Positions 2-11,700 of a stretch of 24,471 nucleotides of DNA are shown here, in pieces. This DNA is from a virus. Location of the stretch: IMG/VR virus record IMGVR_UViG_3300023176_001198, positions 1 to 24,471 of that record. The stretch is one strand, 5' to 3'. The position numbers and the translations under genes were made by a program. The notes under the pieces were generated by a model. It was given only the letters and a program-made list of their open reading frames with translations. It was not told the DNA's origin and searched no databases. The stretch's first letter is position 1. Each line of letters begins with the position of its first letter.

Positions 2-271
2 GAAGAAGGTGGTCGTGTCACTATCCGTCAATTCAAAGGTTCTCGCGCTATTGGCTTCTGGGCTTACTTCATGTTTGGCCTAGAGAGAAACCAACAGTCA
101 GATGACCCTGAGATTCGACAGACAACTATCTTCCGTATCCTGAAAGACAGGTATACAGGCCAGAGTACAGGACTAACACACCCCTTAGGTTATGAAACCT
201 CTACAGGTACTTTGTACCCTAAGACATACATAGAAGATGAAGCTGAAGAGGAAGAAGACTTCGGCTTCTAG
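2..271 (+). CDS. Primase/helicase C-terminal end (gp4-like), partial
   Basis: This is the last 89 residues of a replicative DNA helicase; its 5' part lies outside the window. The frame is open from base 2 and ends at TAG 269-271. The segment GLERNQQSDDP followed by FRILKDRYTGQSTG matches the end of the T7 gp4 RecA-like helicase domain (LERNQQ, then RILKxRFTG with the arginine-finger region), which unwinds DNA as a ring hexamer. After it comes a very acidic tail (DEAEEEEDFGF). In T7 gp4 an acidic tail ending in phenylalanine docks the helicase on the DNA polymerase; the same ending here suggests the same contact. The polymerase gene starts 8 bases downstream, which fits. Whether a primase domain is fused upstream cannot be seen. 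Confidence 0.9.
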   Translation, partial: EEGGRVTIRQFKGSRAIGFWAYFMFGLERNQQSDDPEIRQTTIFRILKDRYTGQSTGLTHPLGYETSTGTLYPKTYIEDEAEEEEDFGF

Positions 272-279
272 GACAGGTA

Positions 280-2220
280 ATGCGATTAGCCGCTGATATT
301 GAGGCTAATGGACTTCTTGATACCGTCTCTAAATTTCATTGTATGGTCGCTATTGATGTCGATTCACGCTTTGTCCATAAGTTCTATCCAGACCAAATAG
401 ACCAAGCTATCGACTTCTTAGAGCAAGCTGATCAAGTCATTATGCACAATGGCATTAAGTACGATCACCCCGCTCTCGAAAAGCTATCTGGACGTAAGAT
501 ACGAAAGGATAACTGGACAGACACGCTCGTACTATCACGCTTAATCTACTCCAACTTGAAGGATAAGGACTATCCGTTAATCACCCGCTGGAAGAAGTGG
601 GCTGCTATGGAAGCTCAGATCGAAAAGCTGGAGTCTCTAAACGACCCTAACCACCTACCCTACCTAGCTGGCCTTAAGAAGAAACTTGAGATTAGCAAAA
701 AGAAAGTAGCGTTACCTCCGAAGCTCTATGGCTCTCACTCGTTGAAAGCTTGGGGCTATCGCTTAGGTAACAACAAAGGAGAATTCGCAGAAGAAACCGA
801 CTGGCAGACATTCAGTCCTGAAATGCTTAATTACTGTGAACAAGATGTCTGGGTGACCCTAGACTTGTTCGAGTTGCTAGAGAGCAAGGCTTATGCCGAG
901 ACAGCAATTAAGTTAGAACATGATGTCGCTTGGCTTATGGCTAAGCAAGAGCAAAACGGTTTCTACTTCGATACTAAGGCGGCTGAGGTGCTGGAGGTAA
1001 CACTCCGCTCTCAGTACGTCACCCTTGAGACTGAACTTAAGAAAGTCTTCGGGTGTTGGTTTCAGAAAGTAGGCGAAACTACCCCTAAAAGAACCCTCAA
1101 TTATAAAGACCCTGTGAGAGCTGATCTTACTCAAGGGGCTTCTTATACCAAGATCAAACTTGTCGAATATAACCCCGCCTCCCGACAGCATACCTCCCGC
1201 TGTCTCAAGAAGTTGTACGACTGGAAACCTTCAGTCTTTACCGACAATGGAGACCCCAAGATTGACGATGATGTTCTAGGAAAGCTGCCTTATCCAGAGG
1301 CTCAGCTCCTAGCGCGTTACTTCATGCTCTCCAAACGCTTAGGTCAACTTATTGATGGTAACCAAGGGTGGTTAAAGCAAGTTACAACAGAAGGATTTAT
1401 TCATGGCTCTGTTAATCCAAATGGTGCTGTTACTGGTCGAGCTACACACGCATACCCTAACGTGGCTCAAGTACCAAGCTGTAAGGCTGAATATGGTTCC
1501 AATTGCCGTGAACTATTTACCGTACCTAGCGGTTGGCTCCTTTTCGGGAGTGATGCTTCTGGTTTGGAGCTACGTTGCCTCGCTCACTTTATGGCGAGAT
1601 ATGACGATGGAGAATACGTTTCCGTAGTCCTTGATGGTGACGTACACACGACCAACATGAATGCGGCTGGTCTGACCATACGAGACCAAGCTAAGACGTT
1701 CATCTATGCCTTCCTCTACGGAGGGGGTGACCAAGTGGTAGGCGCTATCGTCAAACCGCAAGGTACTGAGGATGAACAGAAGAAGATTGGACGAAGACTC
1801 AAGAAGAAGTTCCTAGACAATACCCCAGCGATTAGAGCCTTACGAAATGCAGTGAAGGCCGTTGCTGAGAAACGTGGTTACGTCAAGGGCTTAGATAATC
1901 GTCAAGTTCATATCCGCTCAGCCCACGCAGCCCTGAACACCTTGCTTCAATCTGCTGGAGCTTTGATCTGTAAGTATTGGATCGTAGAGATTGAACGTAT
2001 CGCCCAATCCCGTGGCTTAAAACATGGCTGGGATGGTGACTATGCGTTCTGTGCTTGGGTTCATGATGAAGTCCAAATCGCAGTAAGAAATGAAGAGGTC
2101 GCTAAGCAATTCGCTGAGATCGTAGACCTCGCAATCAAAGAAACCGAGAAAGCCTTTAACTTCCGCTGTCCTCTAGCTTGTGACAGTGCTGTAGGTACGT
2201 CTTGGAAAGATACCCACTAA
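280..2220 (+). CDS. Family A DNA polymerase with 3'-5' exonuclease (gp5-like)
   Basis: Replicative DNA polymerase of 646 residues (T7 gp5 has 704). An N-terminal 3'-5' exonuclease domain opens with the DIEAN motif (D6, E8), followed by TDTLVLSRL and the CEQDVWVT segment. The polymerase domain carries motif A (SDASGLELR, metal ligand D425), motif B (R468, K472, Y476 in the RDQAKTFIYAFLYGG region) and motif C (HDE, H595-E597). Compared with T7, about 39 extra residues, largely lysine-rich and probably helical, sit between NLKD (92-95) and YGSH (150-153). The region equivalent to the thioredoxin-binding loop (about 261-297) is about 33 residues shorter. The start is ATG 280 with a purine-rich AGGACAGG just upstream. 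All catalytic residues I can check are present, so it should be active. Confidence 0.97.
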   Translation: MRLAADIEANGLLDTVSKFHCMVAIDVDSRFVHKFYPDQIDQAIDFLEQADQVIMHNGIKYDHPALEKLSGRKIRKDNWTDTLVLSRLIYSNLKDKDYPLITRWKKWAAMEAQIEKLESLNDPNHLPYLAGLKKKLEISKKKVALPPKLYGSHSLKAWGYRLGNNKGEFAEETDWQTFSPEMLNYCEQDVWVTLDLFELLESKAYAETAIKLEHDVAWLMAKQEQNGFYFDTKAAEVLEVTLRSQYVTLETELKKVFGCWFQKVGETTPKRTLNYKDPVRADLTQGASYTKIKLVEYNPASRQHTSRCLKKLYDWKPSVFTDNGDPKIDDDVLGKLPYPEAQLLARYFMLSKRLGQLIDGNQGWLKQVTTEGFIHGSVNPNGAVTGRATHAYPNVAQVPSCKAEYGSNCRELFTVPSGWLLFGSDASGLELRCLAHFMARYDDGEYVSVVLDGDVHTTNMNAAGLTIRDQAKTFIYAFLYGGGDQVVGAIVKPQGTEDEQKKIGRRLKKKFLDNTPAIRALRNAVKAVAEKRGYVKGLDNRQVHIRSAHAALNTLLQSAGALICKYWIVEIERIAQSRGLKHGWDGDYAFCAWVHDEVQIAVRNEEVAKQFAEIVDLAIKETEKAFNFRCPLACDSAVGTSWKDTH

Positions 2221-2239: not shown

Positions 2240-2437
2240 ATGGAACAGAAAGCTATCTTCGGCTTCCTAGCCTGTGCTGCTGTAAAAAACCTAACAGAAG
2301 ATCAACTAATAGCCTTTATTAAGGAGCAGTCTGATAACGATGAAGAGTTTGTAATCTTGGAGTCTAAGGTTATGGACATGGTAAACAAGATATGGGAAGC
2401 CAACCCTCAGTGGGAGCGTCCTACAAATGAAGGATAA
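2240..2437 (+). CDS. Small hypothetical protein (65 aa)
   Basis: I do not recognise this protein. It encodes 65 residues, starts at ATG 2240 with an AAGGAAAGA ribosome site about 5-12 bases upstream, and overlaps the start of the exonuclease gene by 11 bases. The sequence has a mildly hydrophobic start (AIFGFLACAAV), then an acidic, probably all-helical body and a tryptophan-containing end (IWEANPQWERP). It sits where T7 carries small accessory genes of the 5.x series, but I see no clear similarity to gp5.3, gp5.5, gp5.7 or gp5.9. The good ribosome site and the overlap with the next gene support it as real. No function is proposed. Confidence 0.75.
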   Translation: MEQKAIFGFLACAAVKNLTEDQLIAFIKEQSDNDEEFVILESKVMDMVNKIWEANPQWERPTNEG

Positions 2438-3266
2438 ACGCTGTTTATTACTAGACGGTGACATCTTTGCGTTTGAAGCTGCAAGTATGGCTGAGAAAGA
2501 AGTGGACTGGGGGGATGACCTCTGGACAGTTCACTCTTGGTTTGACGATGCGCTCAGACACGCTAAGAACCGTATTGAGAGTCTGAAGAAACAGCTTAAC
2601 GCTGATCTTGTAGTCTTCGTTTGGTCTGACCCTACGGGTGATTACTTCCGTAAAGACATCATGCCTGAGTATAAAGGTAACCGTAAGACTGGCCGTAAGC
2701 CGCTTGCTTTGAAGGAACTCAAGGTTGCTCTAGCCGAAGAGTACGAAGCTTTCATGAGACCTAAGCTGGAGGCTGATGACGTTATGGGAATCTTGGCGAC
2801 TTGGGATAAGTACAAGCCTGAGTACCAGAAGATTATCGTCTCCTCTGATAAGGACATGAAGACTATCCCCGCTTGGCTCTTTAACCCTGATAAGGACTAT
2901 GAGCCTTGGTATCAACATGAAGAAGACGCTGACCTCTGGCACATGACCCAGACCTTAGCTGGAGATACAACTGACGGTTACGGTGGTTGCCCTAACATTG
3001 GGTTAGACACTGCGGCCTCTTTCTTCAAAGAAGGGCTGAAGGTTGAAGCCTACGAACACACGTTCAAGTCAGGCGCAAGGAAAGGACTTACAGAAACACG
3101 CTGGCGTAAAGTGCATAGCGAAAGCCTCTGGGCTACTGTGGTCTCCCTCTTCAAGAAAGCTGGTCTGGGTGAGGCAGAAGCCTTACGACAAGCTCAAGTC
3201 GCTCGTATCTGTCGAGCCTCCGATTACAACTTTAAGACAAAGGAAGTGAAGCTATGGAAACCGTAG
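2427..3266 (+). CDS. 5'-3' exonuclease (gp6-like)
   Basis: A 279-residue 5'-3' exonuclease of the FEN/T7 gp6 family (gp6 has 300 residues). In T7 it removes RNA primers, degrades host DNA and acts in concatemer processing and recombination. Metal-binding acidic clusters are visible: LLLDGD (D10, D12), EADDVMG (E115, D117, D118), SSDKDMKTIP (D141, D143), and GDTTDGYGG (D180, D183) leading into the helix-3-turn-helix region. The ending YNFKTKEVKLWKP matches gp6 closely. It starts at ATG 2427 inside the end of the preceding small gene and overlaps the next gene by 13 bases, so translation is probably coupled. Position after the polymerase gene is as in T7. Confidence 0.95.
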   Translation: MKDKRCLLLDGDIFAFEAASMAEKEVDWGDDLWTVHSWFDDALRHAKNRIESLKKQLNADLVVFVWSDPTGDYFRKDIMPEYKGNRKTGRKPLALKELKVALAEEYEAFMRPKLEADDVMGILATWDKYKPEYQKIIVSSDKDMKTIPAWLFNPDKDYEPWYQHEEDADLWHMTQTLAGDTTDGYGGCPNIGLDTAASFFKEGLKVEAYEHTFKSGARKGLTETRWRKVHSESLWATVVSLFKKAGLGEAEALRQAQVARICRASDYNFKTKEVKLWKP

Positions 3267-3454
3267 ACAAACCTAAGGTTTATCGTATCTGGGATACGCA
3301 GGATTTGAAATATGTGACAAGACCAAATGGTAAGACGTTCTGGAAAACAGGAGGTCATGCGAAATGTGCTCTTCAGTTTTACCCATGTTATTTACATCCT
3401 CGTAGTAGGTATGAAATCCATGAATTTAACTTGGAGTTTACGCAACGTGTCTAA
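3254..3454 (+). CDS. Small hypothetical protein (66 aa)
   Basis: This 66-residue protein is not recognised. It starts at ATG 3254 inside the exonuclease gene, with a strong ribosome site (AAGGAAG, about 3240-3246), and its end overlaps the next gene by 8 bases. The sequence is basic and aromatic, with YRIWDTQDLKY near the start, a central KTFWKTGGHAKCAL and a final YEIHEFNLEF. The layout (a short strand-rich start, a Trp-Lys-x-Gly turn and a YEIHE-type end) is seen in small phage proteins of unknown role. Overlap on both sides and a good ribosome site argue for a real gene; the function is unknown. Confidence 0.75.
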   Translation: METVDKPKVYRIWDTQDLKYVTRPNGKTFWKTGGHAKCALQFYPCYLHPRSRYEIHEFNLEFTQRV

Positions 3455-3995
3455 CTCACTCACCCCCTACGAAAAGCTTAAGGCCGGACAGGAAGTCTTC
3501 TGCGTCAATCGAGGCAAACGCTTCATCTTAGGCCGACCCAGCTTTGACCTCAAAGCCCATACTCATATTTGGGAATCTCAAAGTAAGCTTGCTGTTGATG
3601 TATTTAGCCATAATTCCTACGGTAAAACTTGGGGATTAGCTAAGGAGTTTCCTGTAGACCGTCGAATTGACCCTGTTGTACTAGCCCAAGTTATTAAGGA
3701 ATCTCAACCTAAGGCTTTAACTGGAGGCTCTTCTGATTACTACAAAGTCAAAGTAGAAGACCCTACCACTGAAGGTATCGCGCCTTATCAAGCTGAGTGT
3801 AACGACATCATTGAAGCGCTTGGCATGAACTACGCAGAAGGTAACGCTTTCAAAGCTATTTGGCGTAAAGCTGCTGCCCGACAAGGCAACGGCAAGCAAG
3901 GTACAACTGACCTATATGACAGCGAGAAGGTTCAATTCTTCGGTACTCGTCTGGTCGCTCAATCTAAACAAAATAAGGAACAAACATCATGTTAA
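3447..3995 (+). CDS. DUF3310/gp1.7-like protein
   Basis: I choose GTG 3447 as start, giving 182 residues: GGAG at 3433-3436 lies 10 bases upstream, and the codons before it overlap the coding part of the preceding gene. The first 100 residues are not recognised. The C-terminal part resembles the DUF3310 family, which includes T7 gp1.7: SDYYKVKVEDP, then ECNDIIEALGMNYAEGNAFKAIWR, matching the family pattern of a D-I-I-E-A-L-G helix followed by GNxxKYxxR, and ending DLYDSEKVQFFGTRLV in place of the usual DLKKAxWYLxxLI helix. gp1.7 is a nucleotide (dTMP/dGMP) kinase that makes T7 sensitive to dideoxythymidine; this role is only a possibility here. In T7 it lies in the early region, so the position next to the exonuclease gene differs. 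Confidence 0.65.
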   Translation: MSNSLTPYEKLKAGQEVFCVNRGKRFILGRPSFDLKAHTHIWESQSKLAVDVFSHNSYGKTWGLAKEFPVDRRIDPVVLAQVIKESQPKALTGGSSDYYKVKVEDPTTEGIAPYQAECNDIIEALGMNYAEGNAFKAIWRKAAARQGNGKQGTTDLYDSEKVQFFGTRLVAQSKQNKEQTSC

Positions 3996-4412: not shown

Positions 4413-4582
4413 TGATTAACGTAGATGTAGTCCTTACAAAGCTTGTCGAGGAGTTGGAGGAGACGCACAAAGTAGAAGTTGAACTCCACGACTCAGACCG
4501 TGTAGTAGGACAAAAGATTGGTCAACGCGACATAATTCAATATATAAAACGTAAAGTAGAGGACAAAATAGACTTTGTGTAA
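4412..4582 (+). CDS. Small hypothetical protein (56 aa)
   Basis: A short gene starting at ATG 4412, overlapping the preceding stop codon (TAATG), and ending at TAA 4580-4582, eight bases inside the next gene. It encodes 56 residues: an acidic helix (VLTKLVEELEETHKVEVEL), a short loop (DSDRVVGQKIGQ) and a basic helix (IIQYIKRKVEDKIDF). It fills exactly the gap between its neighbours, with the overlap style seen across this genome; that is the main support. I do not recognise a family. Confidence 0.65.
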   Translation: MINVDVVLTKLVEELEETHKVEVELHDSDRVVGQKIGQRDIIQYIKRKVEDKIDFV

Positions 4583-4787
4583 AACACCAAAGACCCCCGC
4601 CCCTCCACCACCTCCACCACCTCCCGCTCCAGCCCCCGCGCCTAACGCAGACGTAGACCTAGCAGTTAACAAGAGCAAGAAGAAGAACAAGAGCAAGAAA
4701 GGCTCTAAGGCTTCTATGCGAAATAACTTGCAGTCAACCGTAGCAGGTGTCCAAGCGAAGGCTTCAAGTGGACTAAGGATTGGTTGA
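4575..4787 (+). CDS. Proline-rich small virion protein, gp6.7/gp7.3-like
   Basis: This 70-residue protein begins at TTG 4575. That start gives the N-terminus MCKTPKTP, which resembles T7 gp6.7 (MCFSPKIKTPK); AGAGGA lies about 12 bases upstream. Next come a polyproline/alanine tract (about residues 9-23), a lysine-rich stretch (KSKKKNKSKKGSK) and a tail ending SSGLRIG. The tail resembles the SSGGGINI end of T7 gp7.3, which also lies directly before the portal gene. gp6.7 and gp7.3 are small virion proteins needed for infectivity or tail assembly. The position just before the portal gene supports a similar structural role. The exact counterpart is uncertain because the protein shows features of both. 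Confidence 0.7.
   Translation: MCKTPKTPAPPPPPPPPAPAPAPNADVDLAVNKSKKKNKSKKGSKASMRNNLQSTVAGVQAKASSGLRIG
4604..4621 (+). repeat. 9-bp tandem repeat in polyproline tract
   Basis: Two exact tandem copies of TCCACCACC inside a C-rich stretch (about 4592-4640) encode part of the polyproline tract of the gp6.7/gp7.3-like protein. The unit is a multiple of three, so copy gain or loss by slippage would change proline number without shifting the frame. Confidence 0.7.
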
Positions 4788-8923: not shown

Positions 8924-11700
8924 TGCTTATCTCTCAAGATATACCGAACCTAGTCAATGGAGTCTCACAACAAAGCCCTTCCTTAAGACGCCCCGACCAG
9001 TGTGAAGACCAAGTAAACTGTATCAACTCTGTGGTTGAAGGTATGAGCAAAAGACCTCCTACACAGAAAGTCGGTAAGCTTAACCTAGCCAATCCTTACG
9101 ATTCATACTTTGAGTACATCACACGTGATGACCGTGAGTCTTATCTCATGGCTATCTCTGATGGTTCTCTTCAGGTCTTCGATAAGGCTACCTGTTATGA
9201 GTACCCTGTAGAGATTGACGCTCAGCTTAAATACAGAGGCCGTGTCCCTTATCTACATGTAAGTGGTGAATGGTCTAACGAAAGAGCCTTCCAGACTCTA
9301 CCAATCGCTGACACTACGTTGTTACTGAATAAGACCGCTCCGGTTACCAAGGCGTATGACACTCAGAATGACCCTGAGGACGCTGTAACCTCTGATGTTC
9401 GCTATAGACTGGACTTTAGAGGCTTTCAGTACAACAGGTCATACCTAGTCTCTCTACAAAACACTGACGTTAACTCCGTAGGAAACTTCACAGGATACAG
9501 TTACCTTATCAATGGGACTGAATACCGTTACCACTACCAAACGCCTCTAGCTGACGTTATGCGAGGTGTGCTTAACGCTGTGAAACTCCAGTATCCTACA
9601 GCGATTGTCAGTATGTGGGGATATTCTCTCACGGTTTTCATACCGGAAGGTACTAGCGTAGATATTGTGGACAACTCACATGTTCATGGCGTCTATCGTA
9701 AGCGCTGGAGTAGCTGGCGAGGTTCTAGTTACTACAACGTTTACCAGTCGATGAAGACCTCCACTTATGGCCTAAAGTCATACTGGAATACCCCGACCCC
9801 ACCGTCAGACGGTAGGCCAGAACATGAGGCTATTCTCTGGGTTAAAAAGGTAGACTACGCGACTAAGTACACAGTGACAATTAATGGTTCAACTGTGTCG
9901 TATGAAACCGTCGAAGCTACTACAGCCAGAGCCAGAGCCGGTCTTCAGTCAGAGAAGGTCACGGAAGAGCTGAAGAACGTTATCGACCCTATAGCTAATA
10001 TCACAGTTACTCAGAAAGGTAATGTACTCCACTTAACCAGTACCTCAGCAATCAATATCTCCACTTACGATTCGTTAGGCGATACGGCCTTACTTTCATT
10101 CAAACGGGAAGTGAAGACAGAGACAGAGTTACCCAAGAAGAACGTACCGACTGGGTACAAGGTAAACGTCCAAGGTGAATTGACTGAGGAGGACAGCTAC
10201 GGCTACTGGCTAGAGTTTGTATCTAAAGAAAACGATGGTACAGGCGTTTGGGAAGAGACCACTGGTCTTGACCAAATCAATTACCTATCGCTCTCCTCTA
10301 TGCCTAAGCAGGTCAAACGTCTTCAGAAGAGCGAGTACGTGACTGAAGGTAATCCTTATGGAATATACTTCTACATGACTCATGCTCCTTGGGAAGGACG
10401 CTACGTAGGTGACGATGATTCTGCCCCGTGGCCTTCCTTTGTGTCTGACACTGACGAAAACGGATATGTGACCTCCGCTAAACACATTCGGTCTATGGCA
10501 ATTCACCACAACAGATTGCTACTCGCGTCTGATGAAACTATCAATTGCTCCGAGATCGACAACTTCTTTAACTTCTTCCCCAATACTGTAGCTACTCAAA
10601 TGGATAATGACCCTATTGAGATTGCTGTAGACAGTACCGATATTGCAACCATTGAACACATGGTTCCTTCCTCCGGTGAAATGCTTCTGTTCTCTCGTAA
10701 ACACCAGTTTGCGTTAAAGAGCGAAGATGTCTTCACGTCAAACACTGTGTATACCAAACAGATTAATACCAAAGAAGTGAACGTAAATGTTCCTCCTATC
10801 AGTTTGAACAACAGTACCTACTTCATGACACGCTTGGGTAAATTCAATGCGTTACAGGAACTCATGATTCGTGAGAATTCCGACATTCATGACACTCAAG
10901 ACCTCACTCAGCACGTTCCTAATTATATTACTGGAGACATCAAAAAGATGGCTTCAAGTAGTGCCGTTCAGACGGTCTTTATGTTACCTGACAGTGAAGA
11001 AGGAACCCCCTTCAGTTCAACCGTCTATGTATATGATTACCACGTACAGAACCAAACACGTGTTCAATCGGCTCACCAACGCTGGCTCTTCAATACTCCA
11101 GTGATTGATATTGAGGTAGATGAAACAACCTTGTACTTAGTCACCCTACGTGATGAAGGTATAGGAACACCTCAGCCTTACCTTGAGAAAGTTGACCTGA
11201 CGTTCGATGCGTTTGAACAGGTACACGGACACAAGGTTCATCTTGACTGTCTCGAATGGTCTAACACTCCGTGGAATTCTGAAGACCTCCTACCTAACGA
11301 GGAAACCCTGAAGGTAGACGACAGGTATTACAGAGGGTTTAAGTACCCAATGTGGTACACCTTCAGTCCAATCTTCTACCGTGTCCAAGAGAGAGCGCGT
11401 ACAGATGGACGCTTACAGTTGAGACGTATGTTCCTGAACTATAGCGATACCAGTACGTTTGACGTGAACATTGAGACCTTAGGACGTGACCAACGAGATA
11501 TTAAGTTCGAAGGCCGTGTTCTGGGACGTTTAGACAACCTAATCGGTAGAGTTCCGGTGACCTCTGGTACTTATAGTCTACCCATCATGGGACGCTCAAG
11601 CTCGATCAAAACGACCATCTACAACGATGAAGTCTTTGGTTGCAAATTTCAGTCTGCTATCTGGGAAGGTTTCTACAACTCAAGGAACAGACGACAGTAA
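8923..11700 (+). CDS. Tail tubular protein B (nozzle), gp12-like
   Basis: A 925-residue nozzle protein, larger than T7 gp12 (794). Six copies form the conical tail tube that carries DNA and binds the tail fibres. The N-terminus LISQDIPNLVNGVSQQSPSLRRPDQ closely matches gp12 (ISQSIKNLKGGISQQPDILRYPDQ), and EGMSKRPPTQ follows. The C-terminal half has the beta-propeller-type pattern of the family (HHNRLLLASDETINCS, MLLFSRKHQFAL, VYVYDYHVQNQTRVQSAHQRW). The extra length seems to lie in beta-rich, Tyr/Ser/Thr-rich insertions in the first half (about residues 150-420). The start ATG overlaps the previous stop; CGGAGGG lies upstream. Confidence 0.95.
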   Translation: MLISQDIPNLVNGVSQQSPSLRRPDQCEDQVNCINSVVEGMSKRPPTQKVGKLNLANPYDSYFEYITRDDRESYLMAISDGSLQVFDKATCYEYPVEIDAQLKYRGRVPYLHVSGEWSNERAFQTLPIADTTLLLNKTAPVTKAYDTQNDPEDAVTSDVRYRLDFRGFQYNRSYLVSLQNTDVNSVGNFTGYSYLINGTEYRYHYQTPLADVMRGVLNAVKLQYPTAIVSMWGYSLTVFIPEGTSVDIVDNSHVHGVYRKRWSSWRGSSYYNVYQSMKTSTYGLKSYWNTPTPPSDGRPEHEAILWVKKVDYATKYTVTINGSTVSYETVEATTARARAGLQSEKVTEELKNVIDPIANITVTQKGNVLHLTSTSAINISTYDSLGDTALLSFKREVKTETELPKKNVPTGYKVNVQGELTEEDSYGYWLEFVSKENDGTGVWEETTGLDQINYLSLSSMPKQVKRLQKSEYVTEGNPYGIYFYMTHAPWEGRYVGDDDSAPWPSFVSDTDENGYVTSAKHIRSMAIHHNRLLLASDETINCSEIDNFFNFFPNTVATQMDNDPIEIAVDSTDIATIEHMVPSSGEMLLFSRKHQFALKSEDVFTSNTVYTKQINTKEVNVNVPPISLNNSTYFMTRLGKFNALQELMIRENSDIHDTQDLTQHVPNYITGDIKKMASSSAVQTVFMLPDSEEGTPFSSTVYVYDYHVQNQTRVQSAHQRWLFNTPVIDIEVDETTLYLVTLRDEGIGTPQPYLEKVDLTFDAFEQVHGHKVHLDCLEWSNTPWNSEDLLPNEETLKVDDRYYRGFKYPMWYTFSPIFYRVQERARTDGRLQLRRMFLNYSDTSTFDVNIETLGRDQRDIKFEGRVLGRLDNLIGRVPVTSGTYSLPIMGRSSSIKTTIYNDEVFGCKFQSAIWEGFYNSRNRRQ

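Follow-up and report, generated by a model that had tools for sequence, protein, structure and literature searches.

The DNA polymerase gene of the window, i.e., the whole 24,471-base virus record that was analysed, encodes the replicase of a T7-like podovirus, a member of the gp5 family with a short thumb-tip insert of a kind that is ordinary among its relatives. T7 gp5 is the textbook example of a polymerase that borrows thioredoxin. The reading preferred here, to which we give about an even chance, is that the window enzyme is a common short-insert gp5-type replicase whose hairpin may still dock host thioredoxin, with the extra contacts of the T7 loops absent.

The polymerase and its thumb-tip hairpin

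The gene order of the window is that of a T7-like podovirus: the end of the primase-helicase gene, DNA polymerase, gp6-like exonuclease, connector, scaffold, major head protein, two tail proteins, internal virion proteins, tail fibre, endolysin, and the small and large terminase. The polymerase gene (280..2220, + strand; 646 aa, family A with a 3′-5′ exonuclease domain, assigned by homology, fold, and catalytic residues) lies between the C-terminal end of the T7-type primase-helicase (2..271, +; acidic tail EEEEDFGF) and the exonuclease (2427..3266, +; phrog_107, E 2e-65). At the DNA level, the matches in a phage collection were all short; they came from 31 records, and in no record did they reach 80% coverage of the query. 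Over 8217 compared bases, a viral contig, L001, differs from the window at two positions, 13 and 3474, both outside the polymerase gene, and it reaches 3337 bases further upstream, where it encodes a T7-type SSB (PF21265), a RusA-like nuclease, and the complete primase-helicase. Downstream of the exonuclease, two overlapping frames are present at 3254-3995, the longer of which (3327-3995) has a C-terminal part that matches function-unknown families as well as a portion of a polynucleotide kinase-phosphatase family; directly before the connector gene lies a small, proline-rich frame with a TTG start (4575-4787) that has no PHROGs match.

The polymerase aligned with T7 gp5 (6n7w chain H) in phmmer with an E-value of 2.5e-151, in three stretches covering both ends. 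Its AlphaFold model has a mean pLDDT of 92.8, and T7 gp5 is the best match among solved structures (2ajq_F: Z 42.0, rmsd 1.9 Å over 582 residues, 50% identity). At each of the 12 catalytic or active-site positions tested, the window polymerase has the T7 residue: D5, E7, D65, Y170, D174, D475, D654, and E655, together with H506, R518, K522, and Y526. The latter four are named for T7 gp5 in PMC5984650.

The counterpart of the T7 thioredoxin-binding subdomain, anchors W260 and N298 included, is encoded at 1057..1173 (+), as placed by alignment; the AlphaFold block means of this stretch are 83-94. The sequence-only reading had counted 37 residues between the two anchors, and this count is exact; 70 residues separate W264 and N335 of T7. 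According to DSSP on the model, two basal strands, residues 259-267 (1054..1080, +) and 289-296 (YTKIKLVE; 1144..1167, +), flank a tip loop, residues 268-288 (1081..1143, +), which by model and alignment is short where T7 carries basic loops. The absence of the distal basic loop of T7 (KKPKNKAQ), noticed in the same reading, was borne out by the alignment, in which its counterpart amounts to at most a few doubtfully placed residues. T7 K281, K285, R288, K290, K302, and K304 have no counterpart in this alignment, K300 is aligned with D277, and K293 and K299 with K270 and K276, their placement within the gap being uncertain. The insert contains seven K/R residues with a net charge of +3, compared with 14 and +7 in T7, at about the same density per residue. 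A full-length T7-type insert, with its basic loops and roughly 70-76 residues, is thus not found in the window. The insert is best explained as a beta hairpin that keeps both basal strands of the T7 subdomain, the distal basic loops having been lost or never acquired. Since the distal basic part is missing, its role in T7 is either absent here or performed elsewhere.

The hairpin is confidently predicted, and that it folds by itself in the model favours an alternative in which the polymerase is independent of thioredoxin: the hairpin would be a fixed thumb-tip element touching the primer-template, and processivity would come from helicase and SSB tethers. We consider this alternative a serious one, with a probability somewhat short of even. 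The control fold of a relative with a 61-residue insert (L050) showed predicted basal strands (237-241 and 294-298) and a stretch with pLDDT below 50 (261-284), so by prediction the short hairpin is ordered on its own and the long insert is not. However, the alignment behind the control fold had 37 rows, of which just 6 carried long inserts, and the low confidence may reflect this shallow alignment.

Insert length among related polymerases

The aligned set consisted of 105 polymerases (80 IMG/VR loci, 16 phage records, six bacterial-genome loci, Syn5, SIO1, and SP6). The IMG/VR relatives were found by peptide patterns taken from the window protein itself (80 of 99 kept) and the 16 phage records (L081-L096) were hand-picked, so all frequencies given here are those of a biased sample. 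The set covers 105 of 106 loci, phiKMV (L106) being absent; the window's own gene is counted as L001, and duplicates such as L011/L099 are included. A non-redundant set of 67 of the 105 was defined by a length of at least 500 aa and identity below 88%.

The insert has at most 40 residues in 86 of the 105 polymerases (range 13-40) and at least 55 in the remaining 19; by class, four have 25 or fewer, 62 have 26-34, 20 have 35-45, and 19 have 55 or more. The short insert is therefore the majority state in this sample and does not stand out as an oddity, and the absence of the domain from phiKMV-type polymerases is already described in PMC5653853, where it is tentatively connected with errors in replication. 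This published absence also speaks for the thioredoxin-independent alternative. The description of the loop as reduced probably has the direction wrong. In the alignment, E. coli Pol I has practically no insert, and its absence from Pol I is also stated in PMC3997047. In a tree built excluding the insert, the T7 group has long forms and so, apart from it, do L026/L027/L082, L083, L094, and L108; long and short states changed at least five times. The rooting of this tree is unsafe, as the outgroup does not fall on one side of any branch and long branches meet. With Pol I lacking the insert and short forms scattered over the tree, the long loop of T7 looks like a probable elaboration.

It might also be supposed that the loop was shortened in one genome only, by recent deletion or by misassembly. 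This is hardly credible: nothing was found in its favour, contig L001 is identical across the gene, and the polymerases of nine further loci (L002-L007 and L009-L011) all have 37-residue inserts containing the letters YKD.

A further difference from T7 was observed in the exonuclease domain, where residues 97-146 (568..717, +) form an insertion of 50 residues, compared with 11 in T7, lying within a predicted helical hairpin (93-120/123-139). At least 25 residues at this site were found in 10 of the 105 aligned polymerases, all with thumb inserts of 32-38 residues. As a candidate substitute for the missing loop, the insertion was not supported: among non-redundant rows, such lengths are reached in 7 of the 52 with short inserts and in none of the 15 with long ones (Fisher p 0.34), and L002 does not retain the basic charge.

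The thioredoxin face and candidate partners

A simulation described in PMC5984650 has T7 Y265, P325, T327, V329, and E330 touching thioredoxin. The corresponding residues of the window polymerase are F261, S288, T290, I292, and K293, all within the kept basal hairpin. Loop length by itself is no ground for the earlier suggestion that the enzyme may not use thioredoxin, as the hairpin with the contact positions and the strand motif are kept, with K293 in the place of E330. The replacement of this salt-bridge partner by lysine, together with that of P325 by serine, counts in favour of thioredoxin independence; K293 would, judging from the aligned sequences, place a positive charge opposite thioredoxin R73. 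Of the 15 long-insert rows, 6 also have a lysine at the E330 position. Six contigs of bacterial genomes contain relatives of the polymerase, including those of Marinobacter similis, Nitrincola, and a Bermanella MAG. One thioredoxin each of M. similis (L110) and Nitrincola (L111) keeps the letters IRGIPT, which are those of E. coli thioredoxin as well, a point in favour of docking; further thioredoxins there read IRSIPT. Thioredoxin R73, G74, and I75 are named in PMC5984650. The conservation of IRGIPT in these genomes leaves the change of E330 to K293 unexplained, as K293 would face R73.

The second basal strand carries a pattern, [FY][TSC]x[IVL], scored in the 12 residues preceding the conserved N at positions equivalent to T7 326, 327, and 329. 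It is present in 25 of the 26 non-redundant polymerases with inserts of at least 35 residues, the window included, and in 1 of 41 with shorter ones; the misfits are L047 (insert of 73, without the pattern) and L089 (insert of 32, with it). The window's GASYTKIKLVEY fits the pattern and so falls on T7's side of the divide, T7 E330 not being kept. The pattern was defined after column counts had been inspected and the sequences are related; among three well-supported independent pairs the contrast went the same way in 2.8 on average and the opposite way in none (median p 0.25). A post hoc pattern, related sequences, and only three independent pairs make this divide a lead. It suggests, at the level of aligned sequences, that inserts of at least 35 residues share a surface missing from shorter ones, and in T7 the surface carrying this strand meets thioredoxin. 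Such a divide is not clearly to be expected of a hairpin with a structural role only, which weighs against the thioredoxin-independent alternative; the strand may also be conserved merely for packing of the hairpin.

One tentative interpretation arranges the inserts in steps: practically none in Pol I, next a loop of about 28-34 residues that lacks the thioredoxin-face strand, then a hairpin of 35-45 residues that has it, as in the window enzyme, and finally the long form of T7 with its additional basic loops; the middle form would be a minimal thioredoxin dock. We regard it as rather doubtful. Among the matches listed in literature searches, nothing was found on an insert-length threshold for the strand pattern. 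If the steps are real, then thioredoxin binding would be separated in the middle form from the DNA- and helicase-binding loops with which it is fused in T7. In Syn5, whose polymerase lacks the pattern and has an insert of 30 residues, gp25 nevertheless gives a weak match to thioredoxin, so the pattern may not mark thioredoxin use. The gp25 result slightly lowers the probability of the stepwise interpretation and raises that of another possibility, that processivity is provided by a different phage- or host-encoded factor.

This last possibility, raised earlier as another clamp, is nevertheless improbable. It gains from the missing T7 loops, from the incompleteness of the genome, and from Syn5, which shows that a thioredoxin-like gene can lie next to the polymerase gene in a short-insert phage. 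It loses from the searches of the window, itself a genome fragment, where neither thioredoxin (PF00085) nor the beta-clamp N-domain was matched and a PHROGs scan of 26 of the 59 listed frames gave no clamp-like family. Moreover, the helicase-polymerase gap, 8 bases in L001, has no room for a gene, and for the small frame just downstream of the polymerase (2240-2434) the only relative in viral contigs is L001's own copy.

A phage-encoded thioredoxin was rejected as the general partner of short loops: PF00085 was matched nowhere in the window, in 1 of 47 related records (G002, the record of L007; IMG/VR records may be incomplete), and in one of four named phages (Syn5, SIO1, phiKMV, and SP6), namely Syn5, under the curated cut-off. 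The Syn5 (L105) match is gp25 (10475-10771), in the helicase-polymerase interval, with an E-value of 4.1e-5, short of the curated cut-off, and a CxxC motif; it is annotated merely as gp25. Thioredoxin genes in marine T7-like phages are reported in PMC2784036 and PMC4961962, and the genomes cited there include SIO1 and Syn5. As SIO1 was negative here despite these papers, divergent phage thioredoxins can escape PF00085. When small frames between helicase and polymerase were judged by eye in 88 loci, a thioredoxin-like one was seen in Syn5 only. Many loci with 32-residue inserts (L012-L042 and similar) have a gene of about 66 aa (SISQREALIDYSIQSLTKRISELR) in this interval, and the window has none. 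The record of L007 contains two near-identical small CxxC proteins of the thioredoxin fold (L097 and L098), at about 0.9 and 41.3 kb of the 49.7-kb contig, each adjoining a similar frame that from its sequence may encode ribonucleotide reductase; the pair is either a long repeat or an assembly duplication.

Taken from the sequences, the use of host thioredoxin by the window enzyme would thus be about evenly balanced, with a slight preference for weak docking because the strand pattern is kept.

Fork contacts and known systems

The site of the T7 W579 separation-pin hairpin, residues 516-536 (1825..1887, +), has by alignment 21 residues compared with 35 in T7, and the window polymerase, like most sampled relatives, has no counterpart of W579. 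Among 64 of the 67 non-redundant rows (L094, L107, and L108 left out), the longer stretch is present in eight long-insert rows and absent from five; it is present in two short-insert rows (L060 and L061, with a different sequence) and absent from 49. Of the front basic patch of T7 (K587, K589, R590, and R591), R590 is kept, K587 falls in a deletion, and other residues stand in the places of K589 and R591. Cleft residues K501, R505, and K509 occupy the positions of T7 K545, K549, and K553. In T7, the W579 beta hairpin lies at the fork opening, and its replacement by a short linker cut strand displacement and helicase coupling, as PMC8835902 reports; the front basic patch near this hairpin binds helicase tails according to PMC12593628. 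Judged from the aligned sequences, both polymerase regions bound by helicase tails in T7 look reduced in the window enzyme. The acidic C-terminal tails are kept (EEEEDFGF in the helicase and EELDDF in the SSB).

Among genes ending inside the locus (helicase in 55 and SSB in 32 of the 67 non-redundant rows), tails ending in F are common in short-insert phages (helicase 36/47, SSB 24/28), a further point in favour of processivity through helicase and SSB tethers without thioredoxin. Three loci (L059, L060, and L064) have both SSB and helicase ending in I or V in place of the usual F, as if the two tails shared one changed docking pocket. The idea of compensating charge, i.e., less acidic tails where the insert is less basic, was rejected for the helicase (rho 0.02, n 55); for the SSB, the correlation (rho 0.36, p 0.04, n 32) comes from statistics ignoring kinship and is not used as evidence. 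Tree-based pairs were too few (two for SSB, four for helicase), and the window's strongly acidic tails run opposite to such a trend.

In the preferred reading, the hairpin would still dock host thioredoxin, probably more weakly than in T7, E330 being K293. The additional DNA and helicase contacts of the T7 loops would be missing, and the grip on the fork would be shifted toward the acidic, F-ending tails of helicase and SSB, at putative binding places, and toward the basic parental-DNA cleft. No less telling about how the window replisome differs from that of T7 is the lack of the W579 hairpin. The finding is mostly ordinary, yet it raises an idea about which loops still bind thioredoxin; should the short hairpin dock it, a small, clean module would be available for studying the contact and for engineering processivity. 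In this sample, the long loop and the fork-splitting hairpin are confined to T7 and some other lineages, so conclusions on helicase coupling drawn from T7 may not transfer to many T7-like phages.

T7 gp5 and the window polymerase share the fold, the polymerase and exonuclease domains, the tested catalytic residues, the basal thumb-tip hairpin, and a gene position between the helicase and exonuclease genes. They differ in that T7 has the 70-residue insert with distal basic loops, the W579 hairpin, and an exonuclease site of 11 residues. Closer are the polymerases of L002 and of a prophage-like locus of Marinobacter similis (L099, identical to L011), with 61-63% identity, 37-residue inserts, and a 51-residue exonuclease insertion; they differ from the window in the charge of this insertion, and the L002 helicase tail ends in Y. 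The M. similis locus lies in the bacterial chromosome, which indicates that related prophages exist; its helicase frame is broken in the record. The phiKMV-type polymerases are, by the published description (PMC5653853), likewise T7-related enzymes without a full thioredoxin-binding subdomain, and the window polymerase retains a hairpin of 37 residues; the alignment does not include phiKMV, its polymerase gene (807 aa in the record) giving no match to the query at the cut-off used. At the other extreme, the loop of phiCbK is 11 longer than that of T7 according to PMC3556154. The phiCbK-type CcrKarma (L083) has an insert of 79 residues by the W/N anchors, compared with 37 in the window, and at its end YKDPMKGDRTAGAAF resembles the window's YKDPVRADLTQGASY.
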